A stretch of DNA of 64,000 nt, taken from contig JBBDXT010000004.1 of assembly GCA_040902225.1 (NCBI GenBank), positions 578,965 through 642,964 of the forward strand, given 5' to 3'. Both the position numbers and the translations under genes were made by a program. Shown in pieces: positions 58,214-61,148 of the stretch. Position 1 is the first letter of the stretch, and every line of letters begins with the position of its first letter. Under the pieces are notes generated by a model. It had not been told where the DNA came from and did not search any database. It worked only from the letters and a program-made list of their open reading frames with translations. This stretch comes from Chloroflexota bacterium. GTDB taxonomy: Bacteria; Chloroflexota; Limnocylindria; QHBO01.

Positions 58214-58523
58214 GCGGCAAACGAAAGGCCGCGGGTGGAGCGCCGATCCTGGGAGTCACAGGAACGGAGCCGCCCGCGGCGAATTGCGAACGGTAAGGGG
58301 GCGACGGATCTAGCTGGGCCAGCCGCCGCCGGTGTGTGCGCTGCGCATTCCCGTCTCCCTCTCAAGGCAGCCGCCTCGCATGAGACGTGACCGCACACAG
58401 ACATTCGTACCCGGAGGTCGCCCCTTCAATCACCCATCCGTACCTGCGTGGCGAGGGCCGGGCAGTACTTCCGGGGGACGCACTGGTCAAATGGGACTTG
58501 CCAAGCCCCGTATACTCCCGTCA
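58214..58523. other. gap between ligD and the XRE-TPR gene
   Basis: 310 bp without a convincing gene. It contains the inverted repeat GCCGCGGG (58228-58235) / CCCGCGGC (58273-58280), possibly ending ligD transcription, and the promoter of the next gene at its right end. Confidence 0.6.
58511..58516 (+). promoter_or_regulatory. -10 box of a leaderless gene
   Basis: TATACT ends 7 nt before ATG 58524. No convincing -35 at standard spacing. Confidence 0.5.
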
Positions 58524-59822
58524 ATGCCGCGTACCCGCCTGCCGCTACAGAGCACTGCGCACGACAGCGCACTCGCCCAGCAGATCGGCGCGCGCCTCCG
58601 GGACGCACGCAAGCGGAGCGGGCTGACACAGCAGCAATTGGCGGGCGATCGGTACACGAAGGCGTACGTCAGCGCGCTCGAGACCGGGATCGCGCGCCCG
58701 TCGATGGTCGCGCTCAGCTACCTGGCCGAGCGGCTTTCGCTCCCACCCAGCCATTTCCTGGACGAGCAGAATCCCACGTGGAGCCGCTTGGCGGTCGACA
58801 TGACGCTGGCCTCCGGAGATTGGCAGGCCGCCGCCGATGGCTACGCGTCACTCCTCGACATCCCTCTCGATGACCTTGGTCGCGCCGAGGTCCTCCGTGG
58901 TCGCGCCGAGGCGCTGGCACGCCTGGACAAGGGGAAGGACGCGGTCACCGCCGCGGCGGAGGCGGCCCGCCTCTTCAGCTCGCTTGGACGCGTCTCGGAC
59001 GAGGCGCTGGCCCGCTACTGGCTGGCGTACGGGCTCTACCTCTCGGACCAGGAGGCGGATGCGCAGAGCCTCCTCAGCTCGCTCCTCGAACGGGTACGAG
59101 CGGGCCTGAAGGTCGAGCCTGACTTCGAGATGCGCCTCCTGATGGCACTCGCCGCCGTAGCGTCGCGCAGCGGCGACCACGCGCGGTCGCTGACACATCT
59201 CGAGACCGCCCGCGGCCTGGCCGAGGACCTCGACGACCGGCGACGCGCGATGTTCCTCTTCAACCTGGCCATCAGCTACCAGGAGACCGGGGATCTGGAG
59301 GCAGCGATCCGGACGGGGACGCAGGGGCTGGCTCTGCTTCGCTCCGCGGGTGCGGTCTTCGAATCGGCGCAGATCGAGAACACGCTGGCGCTGGCGTATC
59401 TGTCCAGCGGCAATGTCGAGCGTGCGGCAGAACTCGCCGACGAAGCTCGCGCCGCGTTTGAGGAGGTTGGCGACGACCGCTTCCTGTGCGCCGTGCTTGA
59501 TACCGATGCGCAGGTCGCACTGGCCCAGGGTCGCCTCGATGACTCGGCGGCTATAGCCCGCCGGGCGATCGAGATGGCACGGGCCACCGGGAATCGCGGG
59601 GTCGAGCTGACTGCGATGCTCACCGAAGCTCGCGCGCTGCGCGCGAACGACGACGCGGAGGGGGCAGAGGCGCGCTACGACGAGGCGGCGATCCTCGCCC
59701 GAGCGGGGCACTCAGCCGGACGGACGCGCGAGGTGCTGCGGGAGTGGGCCGAGCTGCGCGCGACGCTGGGTGATCACCGTGGGGCCTACGAGTTGACCAG
59801 GGAGGCGCTCGCGGTCAAATAA
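58524..59822 (+). CDS. XRE regulator with TPR sensor domain
   Basis: A 432-residue protein. The HTH at ~18-72 (LRDARKRSGLTQQQLAGDRYTKAYVSALETGIARPSM) is followed by about seven TPR-like helical pairs (LFNLAISYQETGDLEAAIRTGTQGLALLRS, NTLALAYLSSGNVERAAELADEARAAFEEVGD and others). The layout resembles peptide- or partner-sensing regulators with C-terminal TPR repeats. Its target is unknown; the downstream cobalamin-like leader lies close to its end. ATG 58524 is fixed by the TATACT box. Confidence 0.88.
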   Translation: MPRTRLPLQSTAHDSALAQQIGARLRDARKRSGLTQQQLAGDRYTKAYVSALETGIARPSMVALSYLAERLSLPPSHFLDEQNPTWSRLAVDMTLASGDWQAAADGYASLLDIPLDDLGRAEVLRGRAEALARLDKGKDAVTAAAEAARLFSSLGRVSDEALARYWLAYGLYLSDQEADAQSLLSSLLERVRAGLKVEPDFEMRLLMALAAVASRSGDHARSLTHLETARGLAEDLDDRRRAMFLFNLAISYQETGDLEAAIRTGTQGLALLRSAGAVFESAQIENTLALAYLSSGNVERAAELADEARAAFEEVGDDRFLCAVLDTDAQVALAQGRLDDSAAIARRAIEMARATGNRGVELTAMLTEARALRANDDAEGAEARYDEAAILARAGHSAGRTREVLREWAELRATLGDHRGAYELTREALAVK

Positions 59823-59825
59823 CGG

Positions 59826-59855
59826 TTGACAGGTGCGGTCCGGTGCAGTTACGCT
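59826..59855 (+). promoter_or_regulatory. consensus-like promoter facing right
   Basis: TTGACA (59826-59831), an 18-bp spacer and TACGCT (59850-59855): the best sigma-70-type match noticed in the window. It points into the structured RNA region, not into a coding gene on its strand. Confidence 0.45.
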
Positions 59856-59864
59856 GCCGACAGG

Positions 59865-59985
59865 GAGTTGGTCTGGGTACCCGCCAGGTGCAATGCCGGC
59901 GCGGGGCCAACTCTGAGCCGGGGAATCGGGATCGGAGATCGGGCACAGCTCCGATCCCAATGCCCGGCGAAATCAGGACGCCATC
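59865..59985 (+). promoter_or_regulatory. cobalamin-riboswitch-like RNA, orphan
   Basis: Conserved B12-aptamer-like blocks occur in the right order: GGGTA, GGTGCAATGCC (59887-59897), CAACTCTGAGC and TCAGGACGCC (59973-59982). Predicted stems: GAGTTGG/CCAACTC (59865-59871 with 59907-59913); GCCGGG/CCCGGC (59917-59922 with 59963-59968); inside it a perfect 10-bp stem GGGATCGGAG/CTCCGATCCC (59928-59937 with 59949-59958). The first block departs from the usual GGGAA and CTGTGA reads CTCTGA, so it may be divergent or decaying. No same-strand gene follows for 600 bp. Confidence 0.5.
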
Positions 59986-60569
59986 GGTGTTTCGACCAGC
60001 GTGAAGCGCCCTGCCGCGAATGGTTCGACCGCACCGGGCAGGTAGATTCGCATCGCGTACTCGCCCGGACCCCATGCGTCCAGCAGCGTCGCGCTGAGCA
60101 CTTCGAAGGCAAGGACCCGCGAGGTCGGCACGATGCCCTGCTCACCGTCAGACAGCGACTGCGCGACCGTCTCGGTGCCATCGGCATTGAGCCGGATGAT
60201 CTCGACCAGGACTGTTTCCACCCCCGGTGCGGCCGGCATGCGCACTGAGTAGGCGAAGGGGTCGCCATCCCGGAAGCGATCGGTCGGCTCGACCGCCTCC
60301 CCGCTGACGGGGTCCAGGGCGGTTCCATACGTGATCGGCAGGGGATCAGGCGCACTTGGCGAAGGCGTAGGGGACGGAAGTCCCGCCTCCGAGCCGGCAC
60401 GTCCAACCAGGAAGGCCACGACGCCCACACCCAGCGCAGCCGCTGCCCAGGAAAGCCAGGTCTGCGCCCGGGGGCCCGGTCCTCGGCGCCGCTCGGCCGC
60501 CATGAGCCGTGTCTGCGACGGACGACCGCGCCCAAGGCTGAACCGCGAGCCATTAAAGCGGCTGCCCAT
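59973..60569 (-). CDS. membrane-anchored hypothetical protein
   Basis: A 198-residue protein with a basic cytosolic N-terminus, one membrane helix (TWLSWAAAALGVGVVAFLVG), a Pro/Ser linker and a ~120-residue extracytoplasmic beta-rich domain (FAYSVRMPAAPGVETVLVEIIRLNADGTETVAQ, YAMRIYLPGAVEPFAAGRFTLVE). No family is recognised. The shape suggests an Ig-like or carbohydrate-module-like fold. Its last codons overlap the 3' end of the riboswitch-like RNA on the opposite strand. Confidence 0.7.
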   Translation of the reverse strand: MGSRFNGSRFSLGRGRPSQTRLMAAERRRGPGPRAQTWLSWAAAALGVGVVAFLVGRAGSEAGLPSPTPSPSAPDPLPITYGTALDPVSGEAVEPTDRFRDGDPFAYSVRMPAAPGVETVLVEIIRLNADGTETVAQSLSDGEQGIVPTSRVLAFEVLSATLLDAWGPGEYAMRIYLPGAVEPFAAGRFTLVETPMAS

Positions 60570-60601: not shown

Positions 60602-60607
60602 TACGAT
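60602..60607 (+). promoter_or_regulatory. -10 box of a leaderless gene
   Basis: TACGAT ends 7 nt before ATG 60615. Confidence 0.45.
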
Positions 60608-60614
60608 TGGCGCG

Positions 60615-61148
60615 ATGGCCCGCCGCGTGTTCGACTTCGACACCCCTGACCGATTCGTTGCCGGCGTGATCGGCGAGCCCGGTGCGAGGACGTTCTACCT
60701 CCAGGCTCGGCAGGGGGGTGCGCTGGTCAGCATCGGGCTGGAGAAGACGCAGGTGGCAGCCCTCGCCGGCCGGATGTCCGAGCTGCTGGACAGCGTCGAG
60801 GGGCTCTCAGGTGAGCTTCCGGCAGCGGTGGCGCGCGATGACAAACCGCTCGACGAACCGACAGTGGAGCTGTTCCGGGTAGGAGCCATGGCGCTGGCCT
60901 GGGATGCCACTGCCGCGCAGATCGTGATCGAGGCACAGCCGCTGGGGGTGGACGCAGCCGCTGGCGAGATGCCTGACCAGGCGCCGGCCAGCCCCGATTT
61001 GTTTCGGGTGCGGGTCGAGCCCGCTCGAGCACGCGATTTCATTCGGCGCGCCGCCGCCCTGCTTGCGGCCGGGCGGCCGGCCTGCCCCTTCTGCGGACAG
61101 GCGCTGGAACCAACGGGCCATTTCTGCCCGAAGACGATCCTGAACTGA
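60615..61148 (+). CDS. DUF3090 protein
   Basis: A 177-residue DUF3090 protein: FDTPDRFVAGVIGEPGARTFYLQARQGGALVSIGLEKTQVAALAGRM at the N-terminus and a C-terminal C-x-x-C zinc-ribbon-like RPACPFCGQALEPTGHFCPK. The family is common in Actinobacteria and Chloroflexota, often beside a phosphatase/phosphoglycerate-mutase gene and a SCO1664-type protein; function unknown. Here a phosphatase gene overlaps its stop (TGATG), in keeping with that context. Confidence 0.92.
   Translation: MARRVFDFDTPDRFVAGVIGEPGARTFYLQARQGGALVSIGLEKTQVAALAGRMSELLDSVEGLSGELPAAVARDDKPLDEPTVELFRVGAMALAWDATAAQIVIEAQPLGVDAAAGEMPDQAPASPDLFRVRVEPARARDFIRRAAALLAAGRPACPFCGQALEPTGHFCPKTILN

Follow-up and report, generated by a model that had tools for sequence, protein, structure and literature searches.

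The window analysed here, a stretch of 64,000 nucleotides, in all likelihood carries a small-RNA gene that is conserved in one uncultured soil family of Chloroflexota, has not been catalogued before and most likely has a regulatory role. That a real structured RNA gene lies at about 59862-59968 on the plus strand is concluded with high confidence; that its product acts in trans as an sRNA, by pairing, is predicted with moderate confidence. Below, the window's own family is denoted as f1, its genus as g1 and its genome as G000. The family is probably QHBO01 of GTDB, a Ca. Limnocylindria lineage; for the Ca. Limnocylindria lineages including QHBO01, soil is the main habitat (PMC13212565, PMC10608941). 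The features of the locus are as follows.

58524..59822, plus strand: HTH_31 and TPR regulator gene (HTH-TPR gene) by Pfam; the longest ORF runs from 58332, the likely start is ATG 58524
59826..59831, plus strand: -35 box TTGACA, invariant in 21 of 21 homologues (G007 by eye)
59832..59849, plus strand: promoter spacer of 18 nt, its first part GGTGCGGT kept in many genera
59850..59855, plus strand: -10 box TACGCT (TAnnnT), with T, A and the final T invariant
59862..59968, plus strand: predicted small RNA, matched by covariance model R1 (fold z -4.1); start placed from the -10 box, 3' end from the last stem
59865..59913, plus strand: hairpin P1, arms 59865-59873 with 59905-59913, showing covariation
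59875..59880, plus strand: motif copy 1, GGGUAC, in the 5' bulge of P1; position occupied in 21 of 21
59880..59904, plus strand: inner stem P1b, in most genera, absent from g2
59917..59968, plus strand: clamp stem that encloses P2 in g1, arms 59917-59922 with 59963-59968
59928..59958, plus strand: hairpin P2, GGGAUCGGAG-AUCGGGCACAG-CUCCGAUCCC, arms 59928-59937 with 59949-59958
59941..59946, plus strand: motif copy 2, GGGCAC, in the apical loop of P2; invariant in 21 of 21
59973..60569, minus strand: convergent gene of 198 aa, separate from the RNA
60602..61148, plus strand: DUF3090 gene (PF11290/TIGR03847) with its own -10 box TACGAT (60602-60607), 7 nt before ATG 60615

Homologues were taken from their loci and aligned, and 18 of them served to build the covariance model R1. 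The model matches the window locus with 114.9 bits. On the whole, it finds one RNA-sense copy per genome, in syntenic position, in 20 of the 22 f1 genomes, covering nine of nine genera and all six f1 genomes with a completeness of at least 90%. The homologues in G007 and G009, left out of the model building, are matched at 62 and 97 bits, respectively. Weak R1 matches are also seen on the opposite strand at the same places as the RNA, because the palindromic P2 is there read backwards. In the two remaining genomes, G003 and G014, R1 detects no RNA and the HTH-TPR gene is likewise not found; therefore, both assemblies probably lack the locus. In the rest of the class (177 genomes in all) no convincing R1 match is obtained, G086 showing a 27-nt hairpin match and nothing more, and in a phylum sample of 301 genomes the sole strong match outside f1 is a contig of the MAG G235; the filters are stricter in searches over 40 genomes, so that weak distant relatives could be missed. 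The contig (L127, G235:C87:5374-5502) is syntenic and f1-like, lies in a partly contaminated MAG of 7.7 Mb from another family, and is probably misbinned. At the DNA level, a search of 101 genomes returns two matched blocks, the promoter and a hairpin at 59919-59958, mostly in f1, while a pattern search of GTDB genomes gives matches almost exclusively in Chloroflexi MAGs. Two pattern matches, L115 and L126, have neither promoter nor synteny and are likely chance, a promoter-like partial copy on G001:C250 has no P2, and the P2 pattern has no exact match in viral contigs. A record titled Steroidobacteraceae (L111, JAICUY010000038.1) carries the syntenic locus and is probably mislabelled.

The promoter keeps its arrangement: TTGACA, an 18-nt spacer and TAnnnT are present in 21 of 21 sequences, the spacers of G012 and G021 each having a one-base gap, and in G007 the spacer has diverged in sequence and kept its length. 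The -10 box matches the consensus at only three of six positions, and this is why a simple scan misses the promoter. No f1 genome contains more than one exact TTGACAGGTGCGGT, and each exact match is the promoter of the small RNA. Judged by conservation only, the promoter which the preliminary description placed ahead of the RNA is real, and the RNA thereby has a promoter of its own, as is looked for in a trans-encoded sRNA. The spacer part GGTGCGGT is possibly an operator. It is changed in g3, g5, g6 and g9.

The RNA at 59862-59968 folds with -58.4 kcal/mol (z -4.1), as good as none of 200 shuffles, and six homologues from six genera have fold z-scores from -3.3 to -5.2. In P1, five of the six modelled pairs are changed on both sides with 97.5% of cells paired, in P1b three of six are so changed with 80.6% paired, and in P2 eight of 11 pairs are invariant with 98.7% paired; these values come from an alignment (A5) which is fitted to the model and leans towards structure, and the counts are inflated by relatedness. 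For the whole structure, 0 of 500 shuffles equal the observed values, and slid controls have at most 55% paired. Conservation of the stems in relatives, on which the preliminary description let its case depend, is thus present with covariation, and the pairs of P1 supply the compensatory changes within a conserved structure that are expected of a trans-encoded sRNA. The clamp stem is kept in G002 with changed sequence (GCGGGG/CCCCGC). P2 is a near-perfect palindrome, followed by a U-rich tail in g2, g4 and g7; the U tract is absent in g1. P2 appears terminator-like in many genera, and termination in g1 is uncertain. Since its sequence is conserved beyond the needs of a terminator, P2 may bind something else. 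A coding mini-ORF was also considered and rejected, as the ATG before motif copy 1 is not conserved and the RNA lengths differ by non-multiples of three.

The occurrence of the same motif on two hairpins is the most informative feature with regard to the mechanism. Copy 1 reads GGGCAC in all homologues but G000 and G002, which have GGGUAC, and the GGGUAC of g1 is still able to pair with GUGCCC via G-U. It sits in the 5' bulge in most genera and in an apical loop in g2, where both copies are found in plain hairpin loops, e.g. AUGGGCACG and UGGGGCACG. As a trans-acting sRNA, the product would be a stand-alone, single-copy RNA of about 70-110 nt, forming a new RNA family limited to one Chloroflexota family. 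A sigma-A-type promoter of its own would start it just past the stop codon of the HTH-TPR gene, and it would end at P2, a strong GC hairpin acting as an intrinsic terminator where the U-rich tail follows. P1 and P2 would each expose GGGCAC for recognition, and most likely one or both G-rich loops would pair with GUGCCC-type sites in target mRNAs, these sites being near starts, so that pairing would block or alter translation or stability. From the sequence we infer the transcription, the end at P2, the action in trans and the pairing through GGGCAC. The pairing seed has 6 nt, too short for predicting a target. Hfq is not found in family f1, and any pairing would therefore need another helper or none. 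We suggest only tentatively that the duplicated GGGCAC loops may constitute a new recognition system without Hfq or CsrA, based on RNA pairing or on a new RNA-binding protein, clade-wide and with the adjacent HTH-TPR in control.

The main rival to the trans-acting sRNA is a protein-binding decoy, whose two GGGCAC loops would bind a regulator with affinity for RNA and titrate it, in the way that CsrA is titrated by CsrB-type RNAs. An identical motif present twice in differing stem contexts, together with the sequence-invariant P2, is typical of protein sites. However, CsrA is detected in 0 of 22 f1 genomes while control genomes did give CsrA matches, the motif has two copies only and is not of the CsrA GGA type, and no candidate protein is at hand; we therefore consider the decoy possible and rather doubtful.

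Next in order come the explanations that attach the RNA to a neighbouring gene. Wherever a relative has sequence present there, the HTH-TPR gene precedes the RNA, and it is the only constant neighbour. This constancy, with a promoter spacer conserved in many genera, would suit an RNA that is a 3' product of the HTH-TPR gene or a feedback RNA for it, the protein perhaps controlling the promoter via GGTGCGGT. Such a link is nevertheless unlikely, because an invariant own promoter stands behind the stop codon, the spacer is not conserved in all genera, and no clear GUGCCC site is seen by eye at the HTH-TPR gene start. The window's genome has an HTH-TPR paralogue at G000:C2:225058-226362 (L095), which is 47% identical and does not have the RNA downstream; by eye, the RNA is not seen downstream of this and the paralogues of other f1 members, nor of HTH-TPR relatives in family f3. 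Positions 58440-58523, ahead of the HTH-TPR gene, are conserved across the family and contain CAATGACCCATCGGTAC, AGTACTTTCGG, GCTTGCCA and TGTAnACT, then ATG, which suggests that ATG 58524 is a leaderless start and that a control site lies upstream.

On the other side, the next plus-strand gene across relatives is DUF3090 or a phosphatase. That the RNA is a cis-acting leader or attenuator of this gene is still less likely, even though in g3, g4, g5, g6 and g9 it ends just about 20-70 nt before DUF3090. The DUF3090 gene has a conserved -10 box of its own, as was described at the outset for the window and as relatives with DUF3090 confirm by a TAnnnT a few nt before the gene start; moreover, the gene is absent from g7 and g8, which keep the RNA, and in g1 and g2 the convergent gene lies between. 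A DUF3090 leader was rejected on the first two grounds. The convergent gene itself, for which Pfam and NCBIfam give no match, has no relative between the RNA and DUF3090 in g3, g4, g5, g6 and g9, i.e. in five of the nine RNA-bearing genera, and in g2 its end is situated some 37-45 nt past P2; an antisense action on the 59973-60569 gene, as proposed earlier, is not supported by this. Since five genera lack the convergent gene and two lack DUF3090, the RNA is tied to neither, and its retention in those genera speaks against its being an orphan riboswitch, an antisense RNA or a DUF3090 leader.

A DNA-level element only, that is, a terminator or palindromic protein site without RNA function, would be served by the nearly invariant palindrome of P2, but leaves the promoter, the covarying P1 and the loop motif common to P1 and P2 unexplained, and is very unlikely. 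Least of all do we believe in a cobalamin riboswitch or a degenerate remnant of one, which is practically excluded. The blocks, stems and TTGACA box on which this reading was built are present in the DNA, and in genus g1 the short letter blocks do follow in the right order, a few letters being alike with RF00174. But no cobalamin model, whether RF00174 or another of its clan, is matched at the gathering score or at E<=10, the latter in 59500-60300, RF00174 being absent at E<=10 in 20 homologues too, and the blocks are not conserved in relatives. One of them, GGTGCAATGCC, lies in the arm/loop of P1b and is replaced in other genera (e.g. by UUCG in G009). A second, CAACTC, forms the 3' strand of P1. 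The third, TCAGGACGCC (59974-59983), is located past the end of the RNA, inside the 3' end of the minus-strand gene, and has been lost or altered in L008, a member of the same genus. The final stem of the preliminary description corresponds to the terminator-like P2. As a control, the one true RF00174 match of the same genome (G000:C4:273956-274104, L006 1501-1649) is detected at 48.8 bits, and the B12 reading is therefore rejected. Read from their sequence, the ORFs after that riboswitch resemble a binding protein of the BtuF type and a permease of the BtuC type. At the present locus, a B12-related gene is not directly downstream and the convergent gene intervenes in several genera; nor does a left-over of a lost B12-regulated gene fit, as the relatives have no covariance-model match, conserved B12 core or local B12 gene. 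At gathering scores, Rfam 15 gives tRNAs only in the whole window, and the other families at E<=10 are essentially chance matches below threshold, the majority of them between microRNA-precursor models and the P2 hairpin. Overall, the preliminary description is confirmed in its letters, stems and promoter and supported in its last alternatives, an RNA acting in trans or some other structured RNA, with a real promoter in front, while its cobalamin and antisense readings are not sustained; the result thus corrects a false riboswitch lead.

The RNA looks like a new RNA family of a known kind, without a match in Rfam, and is a candidate new Rfam family. In the literature searched, no small RNA from these abundant soil Chloroflexota is described. 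Being conserved, and having an unchanging promoter, a stem that covaries and a loop motif in two copies, the RNA offers a clear entry point to post-transcriptional control in this group, whose family f1 has no detectable Hfq or CsrA. Among the known systems, CsrB/RsmZ-type RNAs carry a repeated motif in exposed loops, with many GGA copies, and titrate a protein; here there are two GGGCAC and family f1 is without CsrA, for which reason membership in the CsrB type proper was rejected. In ANTAR-target RNAs the loops are hexanucleotides with A1 and G4, and the RNA is linked to a regulated gene (PMC8164766). They resemble the present RNA in having two stem-loops, related loops and a linker between, but here the core is GGGCAC, the loops have 7-11 nt (by eye) and there is no constant downstream gene; the A1/G4 hexaloop is not found, and this class was rejected as well. 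The nearest architecture is that of the 6C RNA in Actinobacteria, which we take to be Rfam RF01066 and which is, as here, a stand-alone RNA of about 100 nt having two stem-loops with the same short motif; its Rfam model gives no match at E<=10 in 59500-60300 and in 20 homologues. The two stem-loops of 6C RNA have C-rich loops, whose function is left unsettled in the paper that describes them (PMC4046766). Unlike the C runs of the 6C loops, the motif here is GGGCAC, in a different phylum, and its copy 1 is placed in a 5' bulge in most genera.
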